Below the pieces are notes generated by a model. The model worked only from the letters and a program-made list of their open reading frames with translations, searched no databases and was not told where the DNA came from. This document shows positions 37,092 to 61,694 of a DNA stretch of 64,000 nucleotides, in pieces; position 1 is the stretch's first letter; every line of letters begins with the position of its first letter. Both the position numbers and the translations under genes were made by a program. This DNA comes from Actinomycetota bacterium (GTDB lineage: Bacteria > Actinomycetota > Actinomycetes > Actinomycetales > Dermatophilaceae): contig JAIUNK010000006.1 of assembly GCA_020161845.1 (NCBI GenBank), positions 102,146-166,145 of the forward strand, written 5' to 3'.

Positions 37092-37097
37092 TAAGGT
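37092..37097 (+). promoter_or_regulatory. -10 box of ribA-ribD fusion (leaderless)
   Basis: TAAGGT, seven bases, ATG at 37105. Confidence 0.6.
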
Positions 37098-37104
37098 GCA
37101 CCCT

Positions 37105-38505
37105 ATGCGGCAGGAGGGATCATCGGGGGGCGAGCCGTCGGTCACGCGCGTGGTCGAGACGCGCCTGCCGACACGGCACGGAACGTTCCGGATCCTGGGG
37201 TATCGGGACCGGGACGGCGCCCCCGGCGGGGTCGAACACGTCGCCCTGACGATGGGCCTGGAGGACGGGCAACCCCACTCCGGTGCGCCGCTGGTGCGGG
37301 TCCACTCGGAGTGCCTCACCGGCGACGTCCTGGGGTCACGGCGATGTGACTGCGGCGAACAGCTGGACGCCGCCCTGGCGCGCGTCGCGACGGCCCGGGA
37401 GGGGGTCGTGATCTACGTGCGCGGGCACGAGGGCCGCGGCATCGGGCTGGTCGAGAAGCTGCGGGCCTACCGGCTGCAGGACGAGGGCCTCGACACCCTC
37501 GACGCGAACCTGCAGCTGGGGCACGCCGCGGACGCGCGCAACTACCGGCAGTCCGCGGCGATCCTGCGCGACCTGGGCCTGCGCCGGATCCGGCTGATGT
37601 CCTCCAACCCGGGCAAGGAGAAGGCCCTGGCCGGGCTCGGCATCGAGGTCGTCGAGCGGACCGGCATGTTCGTGCCCGCGCGGCCGGAGAACGCGGCCTA
37701 CATGGACACCAAGCGCGCCCGGATGGGGCACGATCGACCCGGGCGGGACGCCTGGGCCGCGCTGCTCGCCGGGCACGTGCCGCCGCACCCCGCGCAGGGC
37801 GCGGAGCAGGAGCTGGTGGAGCGGTACGGCGACCTGGCCGCGTGCGGTCCGCGGGTGACCATCGGCCAGCTGGGCCAGAGCCTCGACGGGTTCATCGCCA
37901 GCCGGACCGGCGATGCGGACTTCGTCACCGGCGAGATCGACCGGACCCACCTGCACCGGCTGCGGGCGCTGGTCGATGCGGTGCTGGTCGGCGCCGGGAC
38001 GGTGGTGGCCGACGACTGCCGGCTCACGGTTCGGGCCGTCTCGGGCGAACACCCGGTCCGGGTGGTGCTCGACCCCCGCGGCCGGGTGCCGCTGACCTCG
38101 CAGGTCTTCGTCGATGGCGTGGCGCCCACGCTGTGGCTGGTCGGGGCGGAGGCGCGGGCGTCCGGTCGGGTGCCGGCGCCGGCGGTGCTGGGCGAGCGGG
38201 TCGACGTGGCGACGGTGCCGGTCGGCCCGGACGGGCAGGTCGACCCGGCCGAGGTGCTGCGGATCCTGCGGGCCCGAGGCCTCGGGCGAGTGCTGGTGGA
38301 GGGCGGTGGGCGGACGGTGTCGGCGTTCTTCGAGGCCGACGTGCTGGACCGGCTCTATCTGACGACCGCGCCGGTGTTGATCGGCGACGGCGTACCGGGC
38401 CTGCGCTTCGACGGCGAGGACCGCCTCTCCGACGCGCTGCGGGCCCCGGCCCGCCGGTTTCTGCTCGGCGAGGACACCTGCACCGAGCTGGTGTTGCACC
38501 GCTGA
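37105..38505 (+). CDS. GTP cyclohydrolase II fused to RibD-type reductase domain
   Basis: A 466-residue fusion. Residues about 12-210 are GTP cyclohydrolase II: zinc ligands in HSECLTGDVLGSRRCDCGEQL, then GHEGRGIGL, KLRAYRLQDEG (keeping the Tyr that matches E. coli Tyr105) and LGHAADARNY (Asp and Arg of the active site). Residues about 250-465 are a RibD C-terminal (DHFR-like) reductase: GQSLDGFIASRTGDADFV and LVEGGGRTVSAFFEADVLDR. No RibD deaminase or RibB domain is present. Expected chemistry is GTP ring opening and reduction of a ribosylamino side chain. It converges on the methyltransferase gene seven bases away, suggesting a dedicated rather than housekeeping riboflavin role. Confidence 0.88.
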   Translation: MRQEGSSGGEPSVTRVVETRLPTRHGTFRILGYRDRDGAPGGVEHVALTMGLEDGQPHSGAPLVRVHSECLTGDVLGSRRCDCGEQLDAALARVATAREGVVIYVRGHEGRGIGLVEKLRAYRLQDEGLDTLDANLQLGHAADARNYRQSAAILRDLGLRRIRLMSSNPGKEKALAGLGIEVVERTGMFVPARPENAAYMDTKRARMGHDRPGRDAWAALLAGHVPPHPAQGAEQELVERYGDLAACGPRVTIGQLGQSLDGFIASRTGDADFVTGEIDRTHLHRLRALVDAVLVGAGTVVADDCRLTVRAVSGEHPVRVVLDPRGRVPLTSQVFVDGVAPTLWLVGAEARASGRVPAPAVLGERVDVATVPVGPDGQVDPAEVLRILRARGLGRVLVEGGGRTVSAFFEADVLDRLYLTTAPVLIGDGVPGLRFDGEDRLSDALRAPARRFLLGEDTCTELVLHR

Positions 38506-38512
38506 CGGTCGG

Positions 38513-39517
38513 TCAGCGCGGCGGGAGCAGCAGCAGGTCGACGTGGTCGACGCGCAGGCTTAAGCGACCGGCCGCGACCGCGGCGAGACGCCGGTCCAGC
38601 CAGCCGGCCACGCGGGCCGTGGGGGTCTCCACGGCCGGAGTGGCGTCGTTGGCCGCCCCTGGGATGGCCTCGTCTGATGTGGCCTCGTCTGATGTGCCCC
38701 CGCCGGCCCGGTCCAGATGCTCGGCCGCCGCGGCGGCGCGGTCGCTGAGATAGCGGTGCAGGAACGCCCGCGTCGTCGGGTCGCTTTCGCTCGTCGGGGC
38801 GCCGGCGGTGGTCGGGTCGCCGGCGCTCGTCGGGTCGGCGCCGACCCGCCACGGGGTACTCACCTGCCGCACCACCAGCCCGGCCGCGTTTGCCGCCCTG
38901 GCCGCGTACGCCGCCGCGCCGGGACCGCATCGCTCCGAGCGGGCCTGATGGGCATCGAAAGCCGTCCGCACCAGCTCGTCGTCGGGATCGGCGGGGTCGA
39001 TCGCGACGACGCCGGTGACCGTGAGCGCGCAGAGCGCCGGGACCCGCGCCGCAGCCACCGCCTCGACGAACTGGTCGAGCTGGGCCGCGGTGAGCAGGTC
39101 GAGCAGCGCCGAGCAGGTGACCCACCGAGGCTGGGCCGGGGCGTCGGCGGCGAGCCCGGCCAGCACCTGCGCCAGCTGCTCCACGCCGCCGAGGACCCGC
39201 CGGGTGCCGTCGTTGTCGGGCGCGGCCAGCAGCGCGGGGTCGTGGTCGAGCAGGGTCCACTCGGTCGGGAACGGCAGCCGCGGCTCGAGATAGGCGCGGT
39301 TGGCCCCGGTCCCGGCGCCGACGTCGACGACCCGAACCGGCGCTGGGGCGAGGGTCCCACCGGACGCGTCGAGGCCGCCGGGCGGGCCGGTCAGCGCCTC
39401 GGCGACCTGGGTCAGCAGCCCGTCGGCCGCCGCCCGGGCCCTCTCGTCGAGGGCTCGGCGCAGCGCCAGCCAGTCCGCGGCGATGGGCCGGTCCGGCCCG
39501 TCGGCGGCGGAGCTCAC
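38513..39517 (-). CDS. SAM-dependent methyltransferase of the pterin-like locus
   Basis: A 334-residue protein with a class I SAM motif VRVVDVGAGTGANRAYLEPRL (about residue 60), then TEWTLLDHDPALLA and WVTCSALLDLLTAAQLDQFV. The last third is variable and Ser/Thr/Glu-rich with short repeats (GDPTTAGAPTSESDPTT). The GTG at 39517 overlaps the glycosyltransferase stop (GTGA). It is the last gene of the four-gene operon; the methyl acceptor is unknown. Confidence 0.85.
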   Translation of the reverse strand: MSSAADGPDRPIAADWLALRRALDERARAAADGLLTQVAEALTGPPGGLDASGGTLAPAPVRVVDVGAGTGANRAYLEPRLPFPTEWTLLDHDPALLAAPDNDGTRRVLGGVEQLAQVLAGLAADAPAQPRWVTCSALLDLLTAAQLDQFVEAVAAARVPALCALTVTGVVAIDPADPDDELVRTAFDAHQARSERCGPGAAAYAARAANAAGLVVRQVSTPWRVGADPTSAGDPTTAGAPTSESDPTTRAFLHRYLSDRAAAAAEHLDRAGGGTSDEATSDEAIPGAANDATPAVETPTARVAGWLDRRLAAVAAGRLSLRVDHVDLLLLPPR

Positions 39518-40638
39518 CGGCGATCGCCGGACGGCTCGCCCATGATCAGCGCCCACAGTTCCTCGGCCGGCTCCGACCAGGGCCGCAGCGCGTCACGACG
39601 GGCCAGGGCGCGGTCGCGCCACGCCGTACGGACCGCCGCGTCGTCCAGCCACGCCCCCAGCACCGCAGCCATCTCCGGCGTGCTGCGCGGGTCCACCACC
39701 GCACCGGGCGGATCGACCGGGTCGCCGCCGGCGCACGGCGTACCGGTGAGGGCCTCCACCGCGCCCGTCCCGCGGGAGACCACCGCGGGGATGCCGTGCG
39801 CGAGGGCCTCCGTCACGACCAGCCCGAAGGTCTCGTGCAGCGAGGGCAGCACCATCAGGTCGATACCGGCCCACCGGCCCTCGAGGCACTCGGCGTCGAG
39901 GACGCCCGGCAGCGAAATCCGGTCGCCCAGCCCGAGGTCGGCGATGCGGCGCCGGACGGCGTCGGCGTACGCCGCGTCGGGCTGCGGCCCCACGAATTCG
40001 GCGGTCCAGTCCCGGTGGGCCAGGAGCGCCAGGGCCTCCACGAGACCGGACTGGTTCTTGCGCGGGGTGACCGAGGCGAGCACGCCGATCCGCGGCACCC
40101 CAGTCTCGGCCAGCGAACCGGGGGCGATCGGGCCGGCCTGCGCGCCCGGTGGGACGGCGGCCACGTGGGGCAGATCGTGGCGCCGCTGGAGGTCGGCCGC
40201 GGCGGTCTTGCTGGTGGCCAGCACGGCGCTCGCCGAGTGCGCCGCCCACCGTTCCAGCCCCTCCAGGTCGCGAGCCTGGTTCGGACGCAGCCCGGTCTCA
40301 TCGGCCAGCGGCAGGTGCACCAGGAGGACGACGCGGTGACCGGCGGTGACGGCGTCCTGGATCTGCTGCGGGCAGCACGCGCCGATGAGCCCGTCGACCA
40401 GAGTCACGGGGTGCGCGTGCAGCGCCTCCGCCAGGGCCGCCCGCGCCGCCTCGTCGGGATGCGGCCAGCTGCCCGCCACCGTCACGACCCGGCTCGGGTG
40501 GCCCGCGGCCTCCCAGCCCCGCAGGATGCGGTCGTTGTAGGTATGCCCGCCGCTCGGGGTGCCGGCCGGATCGGGGACGATGAACGCGACGGCGTCGCTC
40601 ACCCGATGGGCGTCGCTCACCTGCTCGGAGTCACTCAT
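39514..40638 (-). CDS. GT4-type glycosyltransferase of the pterin-like locus
   Basis: A 374-residue GT-B glycosyltransferase. The N-domain begins AFIVPDPAGTPSGGHTYNDR; the C-domain has GVLASVTPRKNQSGLVEAL, LGDRISLPGVL and the donor-binding ETFGLVVTEALAHGIPAVV with the E-x7-E motif of GT4 enzymes. It probably transfers a sugar from a nucleotide donor to a small acceptor made by the neighbours. It overlaps both flanking genes by 4 nt, so all are co-translated. Confidence 0.88.
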   Translation of the reverse strand: MSDSEQVSDAHRVSDAVAFIVPDPAGTPSGGHTYNDRILRGWEAAGHPSRVVTVAGSWPHPDEAARAALAEALHAHPVTLVDGLIGACCPQQIQDAVTAGHRVVLLVHLPLADETGLRPNQARDLEGLERWAAHSASAVLATSKTAAADLQRRHDLPHVAAVPPGAQAGPIAPGSLAETGVPRIGVLASVTPRKNQSGLVEALALLAHRDWTAEFVGPQPDAAYADAVRRRIADLGLGDRISLPGVLDAECLEGRWAGIDLMVLPSLHETFGLVVTEALAHGIPAVVSRGTGAVEALTGTPCAGGDPVDPPGAVVDPRSTPEMAAVLGAWLDDAAVRTAWRDRALARRDALRPWSEPAEELWALIMGEPSGDRR

Positions 40639-41039
40639 GACGTGGTCCCCAGCGGGCGGCGGTAGCTCGCCCAGGCATCCGGGTGCTCGCGCAGCAGGAC
40701 CTCCAGGTCGACGAAATCAGCAATCGGCAGTCCGGCCGCGGGCATGCCGTCGGCGACGGCGTCGGCGACGTGGGCGGCGATGGCCTCGGTCGTGGAGAGC
40801 CGACCGGCGAACGCGGGATGGTCATCGAGATTGCGGTAGTCCAGGTCGGCCAGGACCTGGCGCAGCAGGGTCGTGGCGGCCCCGATGTCGAGGACGACGC
40901 CGTGCTCGTCGAGGCGCTCCCGGCGCCAGGTCACCTCGGCCACCAGGGTCGCGCCGTGCAGCGCCTGCGCCGGCCCGAAGAACGGATCGGCCAGGCTGTG
41001 CGCGATCATCACGTGGTCGCGGACCGTGAGCGCGTACAT
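40635..41039 (-). CDS. 6-pyruvoyltetrahydropterin synthase-like protein lacking zinc motif
   Basis: A 134-residue T-fold protein of the PTPS/QueD family. His14 (MIAHSLADPF) and His28 (LHGATLV) align with two zinc histidines, but the third, in the usual HGH motif, is Ala30, and no catalytic Cys precedes it. TTEAIAAHVADAV and the late VDLEVLLREH keep the family's remaining blocks. It should bind a pterin-like ring but may not perform the classical PTPS reaction. The start is ATG 41039 (MYALTVRDHV). Confidence 0.82.
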   Translation of the reverse strand: MYALTVRDHVMIAHSLADPFFGPAQALHGATLVAEVTWRRERLDEHGVVLDIGAATTLLRQVLADLDYRNLDDHPAFAGRLSTTEAIAAHVADAVADGMPAAGLPIADFVDLEVLLREHPDAWASYRRPLGTTS

Positions 41040-41071
41040 GCGGAAGGCTCCTGTCGCAGGTCTGTGCCCCG

Positions 41072-42061
41072 TCAATACGTCACGACATGCGCGAGGCCGG
41101 GGCATCGGCCGGTCGCGATGTCGTCCATCCTGTCAGGCAGCTCCTCGAAAGGGCAGCTGCCGGTGAGGAGGACGTCGTACGCCGGGTCGGTCAGCTCCGC
41201 GAGGGCGAGGGTGAGCCGGTCGTTGGTCGTACGTCGGGTGCGGCGGGCCGCCGCGACCCGACCGACCTGCGAGGCCCGGATCGTCAACCGCCGGGCATGG
41301 AAGGCCGCGCCCAGGTCGACGCGGGGGGCGCGGTCGCCGTACCAGCTCAGTTCCAGCACCTGCGCCTCATCCCCGGCGAGCCGCAGAGCGGTCGCCAGCC
41401 CGGCCTCCGTGGCCGAGGCGTGCAGCACCACGTCGCAGTCGCCGGCGGCAGCGTCGGGCTGCTGCAGGCGCACCCCGAACGCCTCCGCGACGGCGGCGCG
41501 GGCCGGGTCGGGGTCGATCAGTTCGAGCCGGCCCAGCGGGAACTGGCGCAGCAGCGCCGCAATGCAGGCGCCGATCGTGCCGCCCCCGACGACCGCGACC
41601 CGGTCGCCGTAGCGGGGGGCCGCGTCCCAGACCGCGTTGAGCGCGGTCTCGACGGCGCCGGCGAGGACGGCGCGGTCGTCCGGTACGTCGTCCGGGATGG
41701 GCATTAGGGCCTGGACCGGGACGATGTAGGCGTCCTGATGCGGATGCAGGCAGAACACTCGGCGCCCGAGCAGATCCGCGCCGCGCGATACGTCCCCGCC
41801 AGAGCCCAGCTGCTCGACCACGCCGACGGAGAGGTAGCCGTACTTGACCGGGCCGGGCAGGTCGCCTTCTTGAAAGGGGGCCCGCATGAGGTCACGGACG
41901 CTCGCTGGCACCTCGCCGCGGTGGACCAGGCTTTCGGTGCCGCGGCTGATCCCCGAGCGGGTGGTGCGGACCAGGGCCTCGCCCGGACCCGGCGTACCGA
42001 TCTCCTCCGTGCGGATCTCGCCGCGGCCGGGCTCGACGGTCCAATACGCGCGGGCTTCCAT
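41072..42061 (-). CDS. Zinc-alcohol-dehydrogenase-like oxidoreductase of the pterin-like locus
   Basis: A 329-residue MDR-superfamily protein. The N-terminal GroES-like part carries ISRGTESLVHRGEVP and a GYLSVGVVEQLG turn; the Rossmann part has VAVVGGGTIGACIAALL (about residue 155) and ELIDPDPARAAVAEAFG. Structural-zinc cysteines are absent, and the catalytic-zinc ligands are not obvious, as in BchC-like members. Cofactor is probably NAD(P). First gene of the operon, with a leaderless promoter. Confidence 0.8.
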   Translation of the reverse strand: MEARAYWTVEPGRGEIRTEEIGTPGPGEALVRTTRSGISRGTESLVHRGEVPASVRDLMRAPFQEGDLPGPVKYGYLSVGVVEQLGSGGDVSRGADLLGRRVFCLHPHQDAYIVPVQALMPIPDDVPDDRAVLAGAVETALNAVWDAAPRYGDRVAVVGGGTIGACIAALLRQFPLGRLELIDPDPARAAVAEAFGVRLQQPDAAAGDCDVVLHASATEAGLATALRLAGDEAQVLELSWYGDRAPRVDLGAAFHARRLTIRASQVGRVAAARRTRRTTNDRLTLALAELTDPAYDVLLTGSCPFEELPDRMDDIATGRCPGLAHVVTY

Positions 42062-42191: not shown

Positions 42192-42560
42192 CTACTCGGT
42201 CTGCTTGGGATGGCCGGGGTCGCAGCGCGTCAGGTAGACGATGCCCGCGACCTTGGCGCCGGTAGTCGTCGCTGAGACGCAGAACCAGATCCGGCCACCG
42301 TCGGTGACCTTGTACTGCCACTGCGTCAGGCGCTCTGATCCCACCGCGACGTCGGCGAAGTCCGCCCGCAAGGGATAGCACCTGGCCGAGCGCTCGAGGG
42401 GGTGGGTCGTCAGGTGTTGCCATGCTTCGACTGCGGCATTGCGGGCGGTCGCGAGCAGGTCCCGCCAGCCCTTCTGCGCGTCGCGGTTGGCGAACCTGAT
42501 CTCGAACTCCGCGCGCTTGAGCGGGCGCGCGACGGCTGCGTTCTCGCGTTGTGGCGTCAC
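42192..42560 (-). CDS. RelE/ParE-like toxin
   Basis: A 122-residue basic protein with RELE-type strand-rich core: AEFEIRFANRDAQKGWRDLL, SARCYPLRADF and TQWQYKVTDGGRIWFCVS, ending in a TRCDPGHPKQTE tail. Ribosome-dependent mRNA cleavage is the known activity of RelE relatives; here it is inferred. The GTG start overlaps the upstream antitoxin stop by 4 nt. The gene-free stretch to the operon upstream (42075-42191) shows nothing clear. Confidence 0.75.
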   Translation of the reverse strand: MTPQRENAAVARPLKRAEFEIRFANRDAQKGWRDLLATARNAAVEAWQHLTTHPLERSARCYPLRADFADVAVGSERLTQWQYKVTDGGRIWFCVSATTTGAKVAGIVYLTRCDPGHPKQTE

Positions 42561-43015
42561 GGGGCTGGCGCGACGGCCGCTGTCGAGTGGGCGTATTCCA
42601 GGTCGACGGTCGGTGGCGTGACTCCGTGGGCGTAAGCCTCTGCGGTCGCTTCCCAGGAATCGAGGAACGGGCGCAGTTGCGCAAACCCGCCCGTGGCGGC
42701 GCTGGCCCGCAACAGTCGAAAGTAATCGCCCACAAAGGTGCGGCGGGCCGGATCCGGCAGGAGGACGACCCAGGGGTGCTGGTCGGTGAGCGAGTCAGCC
42801 ATGCGGTCGCAGGTCGCATCGTCCAGGCTGCTCGCGATCAGGCGCGACAGCTGGTCGAGCACGCGCTGGCCACCCCGGGCGGCACCGGCCTTGGCGAGGA
42901 CCAGCGCCTCGCCATCACGTCGGGTGATCGTGATCGCCCCGGCGTCCAGGCGCGCAATCACCTCGTTGGGGTGGCGCAGGAGGTCGGAGAGCGTTGCGGT
43001 CTGTAGCTCGGCCAT
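42557..43015 (-). CDS. Phd/YefM-like antitoxin with C-terminal extension
   Basis: A 152-residue protein starting MAELQTATLSDLLRHPNEVI and continuing ARLDAGAITITRRDGEALVLAKA, the short strand-helix DNA-binding unit of prevent-host-death antitoxins. The following 100 residues (RVLDQLSRLIASSLDDATCD, then WVVLLPDPARRTFVGDYFRLL) are longer than in simple Phd proteins and may bind the toxin. The start ATG is selected because a TTGACT -35-like element and direct repeats lie just upstream. Confidence 0.72.
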   Translation of the reverse strand: MAELQTATLSDLLRHPNEVIARLDAGAITITRRDGEALVLAKAGAARGGQRVLDQLSRLIASSLDDATCDRMADSLTDQHPWVVLLPDPARRTFVGDYFRLLRASAATGGFAQLRPFLDSWEATAEAYAHGVTPPTVDLEYAHSTAAVAPAP

Positions 43016-43043: not shown

Positions 43044-43153
43044 TAGTCAATCAGGCTCGGCGGCTGACGCAGGTGCTCGCGGCGAATCGGTCGTGGGGAT
43101 CCCCATGGACGAATCGGACGCTCGCGGTCACCGCGGTGGCAGACTCCGCTAGC

Positions 43154-43555
43154 ATGAGCTTGCCCGCAGATCTCGCCGCCTTGGCCGATGAGGAATTCGT
43201 CCTGCTCCGCACGTTCCGCAAGAGCGGCGTCGGCGTGGACACGCCGGTGTGGGTCGCCCGCCACGACGACCACCTGGTCGTCAGCACCCCCGACGGCACG
43301 GGGAAGCTGAAGCGGCTGCGCAACAATCCGCGGGTCGAGCTGCAGCCCTGCGGGCGCCGTGGTGCTCCCCGTCCTGGCACCCGGATGGTCGCGGGAACCG
43401 CCGAGGTCAGCCGCGATCCGGCGGTGCGGGCCGCCGCGGAGAAGGCGCTGGCCGACAAGTACCGCTGGCAATGGTCGGTGGCCATGCTGGTGGAGACGGT
43501 CGTTCGCAGGGGACGCAGCCAACCACGCCCGGTGCTGCTGATCGGGGCCCCCTAA
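43154..43555 (+). CDS. PPOX-class F420-dependent enzyme
   Basis: A 133-residue split-barrel flavin/F420-binding protein. ADEEFVLLRTFRKSGVGVDTP and VWVARHDDHLVVSTPDGTGKL, then KRLRNNPRVELQPCGRRG, follow the pattern of small PPOX-class probable F420-dependent oxidoreductases. Its substrate is unknown. The start ATG gives normal family length; CAGACT eight bases upstream could be a weak leaderless -10 box. Confidence 0.85.
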   Translation: MSLPADLAALADEEFVLLRTFRKSGVGVDTPVWVARHDDHLVVSTPDGTGKLKRLRNNPRVELQPCGRRGAPRPGTRMVAGTAEVSRDPAVRAAAEKALADKYRWQWSVAMLVETVVRRGRSQPRPVLLIGAP

Positions 43556-43575: not shown

Positions 43576-43815
43576 TCACGACAGGTCGGCGCCGCGCGTG
43601 ACATCGGTGCGCGGCGGCAGCTCGAGGTCGATGCCACTTCCCGAGGCCACCACTGCGTCGTGCAGGGCGAGCAGGGCGTTGCCTCGGGGCCGATGTGTGA
43701 CGTGCTGCAGGATGGCGTGCACCTCGGCCTCGACCGAACGCCCGTGAGCCGCCGCGCGTTGCCGAAGCGCGGCGTACGTCGCGTCGTCGAGCTGCCTGAT
43801 GATCAGGGTGACCAT
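43576..43815 (-). CDS. Orphan FitA/VapB-like ribbon-helix-helix antitoxin
   Basis: A 79-residue protein starting MVTLIIRQLDDATYAALRQR and continuing AAAHGRSVEAEVHAILQHV, a textbook FitA/Arc-type RHH domain with the GRSVEAEVR helix. The tail (LALHDAVVASGSGIDLELPPR) resembles the toxin-wrapping end of antitoxins. No PIN toxin follows; only 20 bases separate it from the convergent F420 gene. Its start is shared with the stop of the radical SAM gene upstream (TGATG). Confidence 0.8.
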   Translation of the reverse strand: MVTLIIRQLDDATYAALRQRAAAHGRSVEAEVHAILQHVTHRPRGNALLALHDAVVASGSGIDLELPPRTDVTRGADLS

Positions 43816-45050
43816 CAGGCGCGGGCGTGGGTGGGGCGTTCGTGGACTTGCATCGCCGCGGGGACATAGACGCAGGTCGGGTCGGAGCCGAGGATGTCGC
43901 CGGTCACGGCGTACGTGTGCGATCGCGAGCCGCCGCACACCTCGTTGTACTCACACACCCCGCACTTGCCGTGGTAGTTCTCGGGGTGCCGCAGCGCCAC
44001 CAGCAGCGGGTTCGTCCGGTAGATCTCCCGGAACGGCGTCTCCTTGACGTTGCCGCAGTGTTCCGGGAAGAAGCCGCTCGGGTAGACGCCGCCAACGTGG
44101 GAGACGAACGCGAAACCCCGGCCGGAGTTGACGTCGATGGGTGGGCGCGGCGTACGCCGTACGAGGTCAGGGTCGTCGAGCAGGTCGGCCACCGCGGCGC
44201 GGAGCCGGTGGTACAGCGCACCATGCTCCACCGGCGGCAGCTCGGCGCCGTCGGCGACGGCCGCGGCGCGCCGGGCCCGTTGGATCGCCACGCGTCGGTA
44301 GTGCGGCGCCTCCGTGGTCTTGGTGGCCACCAGGTCGGAGACGTCGTGCAGCCAGTGCAGGACGTCCTCGACCTCGGCGGCGGACAGCGCCTGCAACGCG
44401 CTGCCGCGACCCGTAGGCACCAGGAAGAAGACGCTCCACAGGGACGCGCCCAAGGACATCACCAGGCGCAGCAGGTCGGGCAGCTCGTCGACCGTGTCCT
44501 GGGTCACCGTGGAGTTGATCTGGAGCCGGTAGCCCAACTCCCGACACCACCCGGCCGCCCGGACCGTCGAGGCAAAGACCCCGTCGACGCCCCGGAACCC
44601 GTCGTGCACGGGCGCGCTGGCCGCGTCGAGGGACAGGGAGATGGCGTGCACGCCGCAGTCCCGGAACACCGCCAGCGACTCCCGGGTCATCTTCGGGGTG
44701 ACCGACGGGGACAGCGCCATGTGCAGGCCCAGGCCGGCGCCGTAGCGCACCAGATCGGGCAGGTCCGGCCGTTCGAAGGGGTCTCCGCCGGTCAGGACGA
44801 TGATGGGGTAGGGTCGCCCGAACCCCGCGATCTCGTCCAGCAGCTGCTTGCCCTGTTCGGTGCTCAGCTGCTCGGGGTGCGCCACCTTCTGGGCGTCCGC
44901 CCGGCAGTGCTTGCAGACCAGCTGGCAGGCCCGGGTGGTCTCCCAGATCACGATCATGGGCCGGTCGCCGGCGTCGTGGTGCAGGTGGCGTACGGCCCGG
45001 TCCTCGTTGGGGTGCGCTGCGCTCGGATGCCCCGGGAGCTGGGAGGTCAT
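43815..45050 (-). CDS. Radical SAM/SPASM protein, TIGR04053-like
   Basis: A 411-residue radical SAM enzyme. The [4Fe-4S]/SAM motif is ACQLVCKHCRADAQ (CxxxCxxC, about residue 43), LTGGDPFERPDLPDLV follows, and the SPASM-type C-terminal cysteines are in YHGKCGVCEYNEVCGGSRSH and GSDPTCVYV. This matches the TIGR04053 group, related to AhbD-type heme-forming enzymes. It overlaps the HemG/HemY-type oxidase by 4 nt, so a role in tetrapyrrole chemistry is likely but not proven. Confidence 0.87.
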   Translation of the reverse strand: MTSQLPGHPSAAHPNEDRAVRHLHHDAGDRPMIVIWETTRACQLVCKHCRADAQKVAHPEQLSTEQGKQLLDEIAGFGRPYPIIVLTGGDPFERPDLPDLVRYGAGLGLHMALSPSVTPKMTRESLAVFRDCGVHAISLSLDAASAPVHDGFRGVDGVFASTVRAAGWCRELGYRLQINSTVTQDTVDELPDLLRLVMSLGASLWSVFFLVPTGRGSALQALSAAEVEDVLHWLHDVSDLVATKTTEAPHYRRVAIQRARRAAAVADGAELPPVEHGALYHRLRAAVADLLDDPDLVRRTPRPPIDVNSGRGFAFVSHVGGVYPSGFFPEHCGNVKETPFREIYRTNPLLVALRHPENYHGKCGVCEYNEVCGGSRSHTYAVTGDILGSDPTCVYVPAAMQVHERPTHARA

Positions 45051-46504
45051 GCGGTCATCTCCTTGGTGATCTGGCGTACGGCGTCTTCGGCGGAGGCGAT
45101 GCAGGCGCCCAGGCCGATGCCGTCGTACGCGGCGCCCGCGAGCGCGACGCCGGGAAGTGCTTGCTGGAGTTCGCGGCGCACGTACGCCGTACGGTCCACG
45201 TGTCCGACCGTGAGCTGGGGGAGCCCCTGTGGCCAGCGACGGACCTCTACAAGCGCGGGCGCCACGTCGAGGCCGGTGAATCGCCGCAGGTCGCGGCGCA
45301 GATGATCCACGAGCGCCTCGTCCGACATCCCGGCGACCGTGTCCTGCCCGTCACGGCCGGCGGACAGGCGCATCAGGAAGAGCTCCCCGTCCCGGTAGTG
45401 CGGCCACTTCGCCGTCAGGTTGGTCACGGCCTTGAGCAGGGTGCCGGTCGTCGAGGGGACGAGCAGGCCGTTGCCGGCCAGCGCGGGGATGCCGGCGACA
45501 GCCGCGCGGGGGAAACCGAGCAGGACGCTGACCGTGGAGGCGGTGCGGGTCGCCGCCAGCGTGTCCGCCGCCCGGGGCGCATGGGGCCGCAGCAGCGCGG
45601 CCGCCGCCCAGGCAGGCACCGCAAGAACGACGACGTCCCCGGTGATGTCACCGGCCGCGGTGCGCACGCGGTAACCCCCGCCCGGCGCGGCCGCCAGCCC
45701 GGTCGCGGCCGTGCCGGTCCGTACGTCGAGGGCGCCGGGCGGCAGGTCGGCCAGCAGCGCGGTGAGGAAGGTGGCCAGGCCGCCGGGCCAGGACAGGAAG
45801 TCCATCGTGGGCCGGGCCGCGGCACGGCGTACCCGACCGCGCGCCCGCGCCGGCACGTCGCGCAGCCGCAACGGCATCAGCGAGCGGCCCTGCGCGGCGG
45901 CCGCCACCAGGGTCGGGGTGGTGGCGCGCAGGCTCAGCCGCCGCACGTCCCCCGAGTGCAGCCCACCCAGGAGCGGGTCCACGAACCGGTCCACGACTTG
46001 CCGCCCGAACCGGCCGGCCACGAAGTCGCCGACCGCGATGTCGTGACCCGGCCCCAGCGGCACCGGCCGCCGGACCCGCGCCGCCGCCGGCTCCAGGCCC
46101 GCCCGCAGCAACCCCGGCAGGCTCATCACGCCGCTGGCCAACACCGGCCGCAGCCGCGTCGGCCCCGCCGGTCCGACGCCCGCGGGCAGTCGCCGTCGGC
46201 CGCGGGGGGTCCACAGGTAGCTCTCGCCTGTACGGGCAGTCACCATCGAGTCGCGCAGGCCCAGTTCGTCGATCAACGCGAGTGCCCGCGGCGCCATCGT
46301 GTGCATGGCCTCGGCGCCGAGATCCACGGCGTACGTCGTGCCGCCCGCGCCGCCGCACACCTCGACCGTGTGGATCTGCCCGCCGAGGCGGTCGTCGGCC
46401 TCCAGCAGGGTGATCGCATAACCCGCCTGAGCCAATCGGCGCGCCGCCACCAGCCCGGAGATCCCGCCGCCGATCACGACGGCCCGCCGTCCGGCGCCTG
46501 TCAT
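45047..46504 (-). CDS. hemG: Protoporphyrinogen/coproporphyrinogen oxidase (HemG/HemY type)
   Basis: A 485-residue FAD enzyme. The dinucleotide-binding motif is VVIGGGISGLVAARRLAQAG, followed by LLEADDRLGGQIHTVE; the later YRDGELFLMRLSAGRDGQD, and the C-terminal GVALAGAAYDGIGLGACIAS that closes the FAD domain, are typical of HemY/CgoX. In actinobacteria this enzyme oxidises coproporphyrinogen III to coproporphyrin III in the heme pathway. Co-translated with the radical SAM gene. Sequence alone does not separate copro- from protoporphyrinogen use. Confidence 0.9.
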   Translation of the reverse strand: MTGAGRRAVVIGGGISGLVAARRLAQAGYAITLLEADDRLGGQIHTVEVCGGAGGTTYAVDLGAEAMHTMAPRALALIDELGLRDSMVTARTGESYLWTPRGRRRLPAGVGPAGPTRLRPVLASGVMSLPGLLRAGLEPAAARVRRPVPLGPGHDIAVGDFVAGRFGRQVVDRFVDPLLGGLHSGDVRRLSLRATTPTLVAAAAQGRSLMPLRLRDVPARARGRVRRAAARPTMDFLSWPGGLATFLTALLADLPPGALDVRTGTAATGLAAAPGGGYRVRTAAGDITGDVVVLAVPAWAAAALLRPHAPRAADTLAATRTASTVSVLLGFPRAAVAGIPALAGNGLLVPSTTGTLLKAVTNLTAKWPHYRDGELFLMRLSAGRDGQDTVAGMSDEALVDHLRRDLRRFTGLDVAPALVEVRRWPQGLPQLTVGHVDRTAYVRRELQQALPGVALAGAAYDGIGLGACIASAEDAVRQITKEMTA

Positions 46505-60868: not shown

Positions 60869-61193
60869 GGGGCCCTCCTGTTCGCTCCGACGACCATCGA
60901 CGGTCACCAGAGCATCTCACCTGCTCATTTCCCCAGGTCGGGGATCGACGCCCGGCATCGATGGTCGTTGCTGGTCACGGACGCGGGCAGGGAACGGCCC
61001 GTGGGCTCCCGCCGGCGACGACGATCCGAAGGGGTACGTCGCGTGGCGGGACGCGCGCTGGACGAGGCGCGCCCCCACGGGCCGCGGTGGTCGCGGTGGA
61101 TTGCCCACGGCCACCCGTCCGGTGCTGGTGCACGAACGAATGGCGCCTAAGCGGCGACCACCTCACGCGTCCGATAGTCAGTCACTATGCGGA
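60869..61193. other. Gene-free stretch with a possible 12-codon ORF
   Basis: About 325 bases without a recognised gene. On the minus strand, GTG at 61185 reads a 12-residue peptide MTDYRTREVVAA to a stop at 61147, preceded by a perfect AAGGAGG (61197-61203) that overlaps the stop of the upstream GNAT gene. An in-frame GTG at 61197 would give 16 residues. ATAGT and ACTAT form a small inverted repeat at the start. Nothing else was seen. Confidence 0.35.
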
Positions 61194-61694
61194 TCACCTC
61201 CTTTCCCGTGTCCGCAGACCGTACGTCGGAGGTGCGTCGCCTGGCAACGGTTTTAGGAGGAGCTTCATCCCTTCGGAGGCCGGCAGGCTGGGCTCGAACC
61301 CGAAGGAACGGTAGAGGTGGCGGCCCGGCTCGTCGGCCATGAGGCACACGTAGGCCCCGGGCGGGGCGTTGTCGCGGATCCGGGTCAGGAGCGCGTCGAG
61401 GACCGCCGCGCCCAGCCCGCGGCGCTGGTGGGCCGGGTCGACCGCCATGTCGATGATGTGGAAGTACCAACCGCCGTCGCCCAAGACTCGGCCCATCGCG
61501 ACGGGGATGCCTGCGTCGTCGACGATGTGCAGCGCCCACCACGCCCCGTGCAGCCCGGCGGACGCCTGCTCTGGCGTTCGCGCGCCCAAGCCGGCGAGGG
61601 CGCGGAGCCGGTTGTAGTGCTCAGCCTCTGGTGGCCCGTCGATCAACCGGTATCCCTCGGGGAGCGAGCTGGCCACCCTGGGAGCGTACGTCAC
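61194..61694 (-). CDS. GNAT family N-acetyltransferase
   Basis: A 166-residue GNAT. AWWALHIVDDAGIPVAMGRVL, HIIDMAVDPAHQRRGLGAAV (motif A, QRRGLG) and YVCLMADEPGRHLYRSFGFE give the fold. The GTG at 61694 overlaps the stop of the arginine-deiminase-like gene (GTGA), which argues for this start over GTG 61676 and suggests co-transcription with that gene. The acceptor is unknown. Confidence 0.87.
   Translation of the reverse strand: MTYAPRVASSLPEGYRLIDGPPEAEHYNRLRALAGLGARTPEQASAGLHGAWWALHIVDDAGIPVAMGRVLGDGGWYFHIIDMAVDPAHQRRGLGAAVLDALLTRIRDNAPPGAYVCLMADEPGRHLYRSFGFEPSLPASEGMKLLLKPLPGDAPPTYGLRTRERR

Follow-up and report, generated by a model that had tools for sequence, protein, structure and literature searches.

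The 64,000-nucleotide stretch of DNA analyzed here (the window; contig JAIUNK010000006.1, from an actinobacterium of the Dermatophilaceae) contains five closely packed genes, which encode a fusion of GTP cyclohydrolase II (GCHII) with a RibD_C reductase domain, an enzyme resembling alcohol dehydrogenases (ADH), a relative of 6-pyruvoyltetrahydropterin synthase (PTPS), a glycosyltransferase of the GT4 family, and a class I S-adenosylmethionine-dependent methyltransferase (MT). We read the locus as a shorter version of a cassette devoted to biosynthesis, here called the PTPS-IV cassette, which is real, widespread, and unnamed, and whose core has been published in part. We consider the chances about even that the cassette encodes a pathway from ring-opened GTP to a product bearing a sugar and a methyl group, for which we infer each chemical step, the order of the steps, and the product.

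An earlier note, made from the sequence of the window and its translated reading frames, had listed these five genes, and all five were found: the fusion, the PTPS-like protein, and GT4 by Pfam matches, and the ADH and MT through a family member and structure models. The fusion (37096..38505, + strand; 469 aa from a GTG, with an ATG at 37105) matches PF00925 at residues 18-189 (209 bits) and PF01872 at residues 258-441 (135 bits). It converges, with 7 bp between the two, on a minus-strand operon transcribed in the order ADH-like, PTPS-like, GT4, MT, and the measured junctions bear out the tight packing described in the note, with overlaps of up to 43 nt between the longest open reading frames (ORFs). 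The MT gene (38513..39556, − strand) overlaps that of GT4 (39514..40638, − strand; PF00534 and PF13692, 65 bits each) by 43 nt as the longest ORF, or by 4 nt from its likely start, a GTG at 39517. The GT4 gene overlaps the PTPS gene (40635..41105, − strand; PF01242, 79 bits) by 4 nt. The longest PTPS ORF runs 34 nt into the ADH gene (41072..42061, − strand); a 32-nt gap results if PTPS begins at ATG 41039, the position where many relatives' PTPS ORFs begin.

Conservation and forms of the cassette

We compared 152 loci: 31 from the order, 80 named ones, 40 from the genus g74 and the class, and that of the window. Three locus pairs are the same contig in two collections, leaving 149 distinct PTPS proteins. 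Presence was scored with local hidden Markov models at fixed score thresholds, by which a gene can be overlooked (Pfam detects a GT4 at the Saprospiraceae locus L139, which is scored without one), and some loci end at contig edges. The ADH and PTPS genes are same-strand neighbors in 150 of the 152 loci, and GT4 is present in 143 and adjoins PTPS in 142. MT was counted in 87 of these loci, GCHII in 81, and RibD_C in 73; 84 have a CDP-alcohol phosphotransferase, 88 a flippase-like LPG_synthase_TM protein, and 33 a gene of the creatininase family. At four control loci around other PTPS/QueD-type genes, neither ADH nor GT4 was matched (0/4); at L231, one of the four, RibD and GCHII were matched ∼6 kb from the PTPS/QueD-type gene. 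The adjacency of ADH and PTPS exceeds chance, and the gene set proved to be conserved beyond this genome, a point on which the earlier note had staked its proposal.

Among 198 genomes of the order, 32 (its own included) have a match to the PTPS-like protein, as do 29 of 197 of the class and 30 of 81 of genus g74, which is probably Streptomyces, given a 95% match to the S. natalensis protein. A phylum-wide draw of 296 genomes gave a match above 180 bits in eight; the other matches, up to 82 genomes in all, did not exceed 110 bits and include proteins of the QueD type. A pattern scan confirmed at least 561 relatives in named genomes, of which the best 80, a choice biased to close kin, were analyzed. 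Seventy-seven of these are from Actinomycetota, Arthrobacter accounts for 27 of the 80, and one metagenome-assembled genome (MAG) contig each is labeled Myxococcota, Bacteroidota, and Pseudomonadota, labels that can err, above all on short contigs. The order ADH-PTPS-GT4 is conserved in Actinomycetota and in these single contigs. No relative turned up among the viral contigs scanned, and a viral origin was discarded.

The five-gene picture of the earlier note fits the window and is incomplete for the cassette at large, since fuller cassettes elsewhere add lipid and flippase modules. The CDP-alcohol phosphotransferase and the LPG_synthase_TM protein are both present in 81 of the 152 loci, both missing from 61, and found singly in 10; the active-site motif of the transferase is complete in 83 of 84. 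In a distant family, f34, all four loci examined have the order RibD_C-ADH-PTPS-GT4-MT beside genes for FolB and a PlsC-type acyltransferase, and the PTPS relatives retain the HGH motif. Contig L132, from a Myxococcales MAG, combines RibD_C-ADH-PTPS-GT4 with an acyltransferase that shares 38% identity with the f34 enzyme. L139 holds a CDP-alcohol transferase, two methyltransferases, GCHII, ADH, PTPS, and GT4, and an alphaproteobacterial MAG (L142, a 1.8 Mb contig) holds GCHII, a CDP-alcohol transferase, RibD_C, ADH, PTPS, GT4, and MT. The transferase and the flippase-like protein suggest that the product of the fuller cassettes is lipid-linked and then carried through the membrane, and f34 and L132, with their acyltransferase, point to a putative lipid linkage as well.

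Genome searches for both gene types found no cassette-type CDP-alcohol gene (best 23.5 bits) and no flippase-like gene in the window genome (positive controls matched in 3/3, short-form genomes in 0/14), and a relocation of the missing lipid modules within this genome was rejected. Because its genome has neither module, the window product may be soluble. Unlinked cassette-type CDP-alcohol genes occur in four of six g14 (Arthrobacter-type) genomes and in 4/4 genomes of family f15; at six sites examined, no other cassette genes were found within ∼6.5 kb of them, so this gene family is wider than the cassette.

The residues of the PTPS-like protein indicate that it is not a PTPS enzyme, and its ring-binding side looks intact. 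The third zinc His of the PTPS triad (…H…HGH) is replaced by Ala in 149 of the 152 proteins and by Val in three. Where PTPS-I has its Cys, 150 read FGPAQ and the other two FGPAR and FGSAQ, also without Cys, and the catalytic His of the LDH motif is Tyr in 149, His in two, and Met in one. The Glu of the TTE motif is kept in 152/152 and the Glu at window residue 140 in 151/152; we take both to be binders of the pterin ring. The best PDB match is SCO6650 (3d7j, 117 bits), and the next scores 20 bits. FGPAQ is given in PMC5445326 as the signature of PTPS-IV, a subfamily of COG0720, and the cassette protein has this signature together with PF00925 and PF01872 as neighbors.

Other parts of the operon were placed through their families. 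The window ADH scores below every Pfam cutoff; the family member at locus L118 passes ADH_zinc_N (33.7 bits, cutoff 31.8), and a structure model searched with Foldseek is predicted to fold as a medium-chain dehydrogenase. A family profile run against the PDB finds iditol, sorbitol, xylitol, and galactitol-1-phosphate dehydrogenases among the nearest solved relatives. As to the catalytic and structural zinc Cys ligands of zinc-dependent alcohol dehydrogenases, the N-terminal region has no ADH_N Pfam match and carries an S-x-GTE motif, with a Cys within 8 residues in 13 loci by pattern count only. The window MT belongs to an unnamed family and matched nothing in Pfam or NCBIfam; its assignment comes from the family alignment, from the L118 member, which passes Methyltransf_25 (PF13649), and from a structure model (pLDDT 84) whose predicted fold matches class I methyltransferases. 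The models of MT and the dehydrogenase pointed to no substrate, and glycosylation and methylation are predicted from the gene families alone. An MSMEG_0565-type cluster was rejected, as the window GT4 scores 51 bits on TIGR04047 (cutoff 260).

Cyclohydrolase, loop residue, and creatininase partner

The fusion keeps the zinc ligands Cys 73, 84, and 86 beside loop Tyr 125 (codon 37468..37470, + strand), and this Tyr, read from the sequence, predicts full GCHII chemistry, from GTP to 2,5-diamino-6-ribosylamino-4(3H)-pyrimidinone 5′-phosphate (APy) with release of formate and pyrophosphate. The zinc Cys residues are retained in all 81 loci with a GCHII (76 by pattern, 5 by eye). By Pfam, the fusion is without the deaminase domain that accompanies RibD_C in the RibD of the genome's own rib operon. 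That operon, ribD-ribE-ribBA-ribH, lies on contig C32 at locus L064, where it contains the second GCHII of the genome, downstream of a flavin mononucleotide (FMN) riboswitch (L064 13109-13241); RibD (deaminase and reductase) and RibBA were identified by Pfam, and RibE and RibH were read from translations. A scan of the window found no FMN riboswitch (RF00050), and no deaminase, ribB, ribE, or ribH was found in the window operon. The earlier note had allowed that the fusion might simply be the housekeeping riboflavin enzyme if the strain had no other ribA/ribD. Because a rib operon with an FMN riboswitch sits elsewhere in the genome, the fusion is distinct from that enzyme, and a housekeeping riboflavin role is ruled out here.

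We take the loop Tyr position to be the switch residue of GCHII, which in SCO6655 is presumably Met120, with the reaction stopping at FAPy. The meaning of this residue in SCO6655 was reportedly set out by Spoonamore in 2006, and papers by Spoonamore of 2006 and 2008 are said to deal with SCO6655 and SCO6650. Among the 81 cassette GCHIIs, 49 have Tyr at this position and 32 do not (Met 30, His 1, Leu 1). A creatininase-family gene lies within the locus stretch in 32/32 non-Tyr loci versus 0/49 Tyr loci (Fisher p 3e-23, a value that ignores relatedness and is no measure of evidence strength) and in one (L125) of the 71 loci without GCHII. RibD_C is linked in 48/49 Tyr loci versus 11/32 non-Tyr loci. 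The branch that pairs non-Tyr GCHIIs with a creatininase gene includes at least Streptomyces, Amycolatopsis, Actinophytocola, and genus g293. This pattern fits a route from GTP through FAPy to APy, and both the Tyr and the non-Tyr routes are predicted to end at deformylated APy. A creatininase-family FAPy (AFRPP) formamidase, BrbF, has proven activity in Sinorhizobium, and according to PMC9478397 the bacteria with BrbF have yet to yield the enzyme that forms its substrate. A GCHII with a changed loop residue would be a candidate type for that enzyme, and the creatininase pattern predicts that a GCHII forming FAPy has a formamidase of the creatininase family as its partner.

The order PTPS-GT4-MT-membrane protein-creatininase-GCHII, with GCHII five genes after PTPS, is found in 19 loci, a spacing that fits the tags SCO6650 and SCO6655, as judged from the tag numbers. 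The earlier note had mentioned a GCHII paralogue near a PTPS homologue in Streptomyces coelicolor; the 3d7j match and this spacing, the latter again by way of the tags, fit that statement. SCO6650, a solved structure without function, and SCO6655, a GCHII paralogue that reportedly forms FAPy, would then share one pathway, which would span relatives of model Streptomyces and many soil actinobacteria. In S. coelicolor, the expression of SCO6655 anticorrelates with predicted flux (r −0.61), in a list said to consist mostly of stationary-phase genes (PMC2853524).

Met-type loci do not form one group in the backbone tree (3 changes, weak forks), unlike their GCHIIs, and gene replacement is a possible source of this discord. 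The free GCHII tree needs 4 label changes, and a single origin of 25 cassette GCHIIs versus 19 others was not rejected (p-AU 0.303); as one origin stays compatible, independent recruitment of several GCHIIs is not claimed. Unlinked GCHIIs also occur: three g14 genomes (L212-L214) have a second GCHII, of the 'GLYSKLDAY' type, whose open frame exceeds 600 aa, and in 5/5 f15 genomes an unlinked GCHII stands next to a RibD_C.

Proposed pathway and alternative readings

In the pathway that we propose, the GCHII domain of the fusion would open GTP to APy, and the RibD_C domain would reduce the ribosyl to a ribityl chain. Because the cassette has no deaminase, the 2-amino group would stay, and the ring would be guanine/pterin-like, not uracil/flavin-like. 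The four f34 cassettes, with their intact HGH and adjacent FolB, likewise point to a putative pterin-type ring. The PTPS-IV protein would bind this ring-opened, GTP-derived ring, the medium-chain dehydrogenase would probably act on the polyol side chain, and GT4 would then add a sugar and the methyltransferase a methyl group. Across the loci, GCHII (with or without the formamidase) and, in many of them, RibD_C would supply the ring-opened GTP derivative. The parts that recur in every form are a dehydrogenase with polyol-dehydrogenase relatives, a ring-binding T-fold protein, and a GT4.

Several observations weigh against this proposal. No nearby GCHII or RibD_C and no nearby CDP-alcohol phosphotransferase or flippase is found in 52 of the 152 loci, the four f34 cassettes have no linked GCHII, and in three of six g14 genomes the only GCHII is of the rib-operon type. 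Of the 16 genomes searched that have a cassette GCHII, four showed no further GCHII, and there it may also supply riboflavin. Since the 32 non-Tyr GCHIIs form one clade, their pairing with the creatininase gene may be a single event kept by descent. RibD_C is absent from 21 of the 32 non-Tyr loci, and a close copy elsewhere was found in none of 10 such genomes searched (positive controls 3/3). Because of this absence, the ribityl intermediate is not universal, and of the GTP ring opening and reduced ribityl chain that the earlier note had proposed together, the latter cannot be extended to all cassettes.

RibD_C has a DHFR-like fold, and glycosylated pterins occur in cyanobacteria. Both facts would suit a true pterin ring, for which the opened ring would close again or the pterin would come from the folate pathway, RibD_C would act as a pterin reductase, and the product would be a soluble methylated pterin glycoside. 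The PTPS fold and the retained ring-binding Glu are in keeping with such a ring, as is FolB beside all four f34 cassettes, which lack a linked GCHII. However, GCHII and not GCHI was recruited, the PTPS-IV proteins of the main family have all lost the zinc triad, which makes normal PTPS chemistry impossible, and the creatininase pattern indicates a deformylated pyrimidine; a true pterin is to our minds credible, if unlikely. It is quite improbable that the fusion is a second supply, feeding a pyrimidine to riboflavin or to a flavin/F420-type deazaflavin, with neighbors that are incidental or tuning. In its favor, both GCHII and RibD_C belong to riboflavin synthesis, the four genomes named above showed no GCHII besides that of the cassette, and PTPS-IV is said, with reference to unpublished work, to take part in archaeal F420 synthesis (PMC5041015). 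Yet the window operon lacks the remaining riboflavin genes and the genome has its separate, riboswitch-bearing rib operon, the cassette is patchy in the order and in g74, unlike an essential cofactor route, and the neighbors are its most conserved part. Many loci do come from close genera, Arthrobacter above all among the named ones, as would be expected if housekeeping or unrelated genes had stayed neighbors through shared ancestry without a common pathway. We give this very little credence: the gene order recurs in several taxonomic orders, in other phyla as far as the MAG labels go, and with different flanks in the diverged f34, and the control PTPS loci had no ADH or GT4.

The pathway from ring-opened GTP to a sugar- and methyl-bearing product thus stays our preferred reading. 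A bolder version, which we advance tentatively and regard as doubtful, is that the cassette product is a membrane glycolipid of a new class, with a GTP-derived pyrimidine/pterin polyol as the head group. The CDP-alcohol transferase (in f34 and the Myxococcales MAG, the PlsC-type acyltransferase) would join the ribityl-phosphate head group to a lipid in the way that inositol phosphate is joined by phosphatidylinositol phosphate synthase, GT4 and MT would decorate it, and LPG_synthase_TM would flip it to the outer leaflet; the short forms would make soluble or otherwise anchored products. If so, a membrane lipid would carry a head group derived from a nucleotide, a combination of which we know no description.

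Flanking genes and comparison with known systems

The genes next to the operon were also annotated. Two overlapping small genes without a Pfam match (42192-43015, −) are possibly a toxin-antitoxin pair; judged by eye, the N-terminus encoded by the upstream gene resembles Phd. They are followed by a PPOX-class F420-dependent oxidoreductase gene (43073-43555, +; TIGR03666, 122 bits, cutoff 85) and by a FitA-like ribbon-helix-helix antitoxin gene (43576-43815, −; PF22513, 60 bits), adjacent to which no evident toxin gene was recognized. At 43815-46504 (−), a radical SAM/SPASM gene (TIGR04053, 502 bits, cutoff 395) overlaps a protoporphyrinogen oxidase gene (TIGR00562, 207 bits); in 5/5 f15 loci, the cassette is within ∼8 kb of a protoporphyrinogen oxidase gene. 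A match to the actinobacterial small RNA Ms_IGR-5 (RF02471, 73 bits) lies at 61030-61211 (−).

Fuller cassettes share a CDP-alcohol phosphotransferase, GT4, and a flippase-like protein with phosphatidylinositol-mannoside type assembly (CDP-alcohol transferase, GT4, acyltransferase, flipping), and f34 and the Myxococcales MAG hold a PlsC-type acyltransferase instead. No inositol gene was seen in the cassettes, the window is without these modules, and a functional likeness would be by analogy. With the early riboflavin pathway (RibA/RibD reductase; in the archaeal/fungal order, reduction precedes deamination), the cassette shares the GCHII and RibD_C domains, and the archaeal diaminopyrimidine reductase model TIGR01508 gives the best score of the stand-alone RibD_C at L118 (128.9 bits, cutoff 186). 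It differs in that the window cassette has no deaminase, lumazine/riboflavin synthase, or FMN riboswitch, with the genome's own rib operon elsewhere. Compared with BrbF/ArfB and SCO6655-type GCHII, cassettes share a creatininase fold (PF02633, 210 bits) beside a GCHII without the loop Tyr; cassette creatininase proteins score below the ArfB model (37.6 and 32.8 bits, cutoff 180) and the MftE model (133 bits, cutoff 172), and no BrbF model matched. The window, whose GCHII has Tyr, holds no creatininase gene, and deformylation in the cassettes is a prediction.

A description of the whole cassette was not found in the open-license PubMed Central literature, outside which most subscription papers lie. 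The neighborhood network of a 2017 paper (PMC5445326) places PF00925 and RibD_C (PF01872) near PTPS-IV; in the accessible part of that paper, PF00925 is called GTP cyclohydrolase I/FolE2, whereas its Pfam name is GTP cyclohydrolase II, which changes the meaning of the PTPS-IV neighborhood, and the dehydrogenase, GT4, MT, CDP-alcohol, and flippase-like genes and the creatininase pattern are unnamed there. The earlier note's suggestion of a wider undescribed actinobacterial system therefore stands as to breadth and must be tempered as to novelty, as the link of this PTPS family to PF00925/RibD_C was already in print. The cassette proteins have the same FGPAQ motif as PTPS-IV/SCO6650, and 3d7j is their closest PDB entry.

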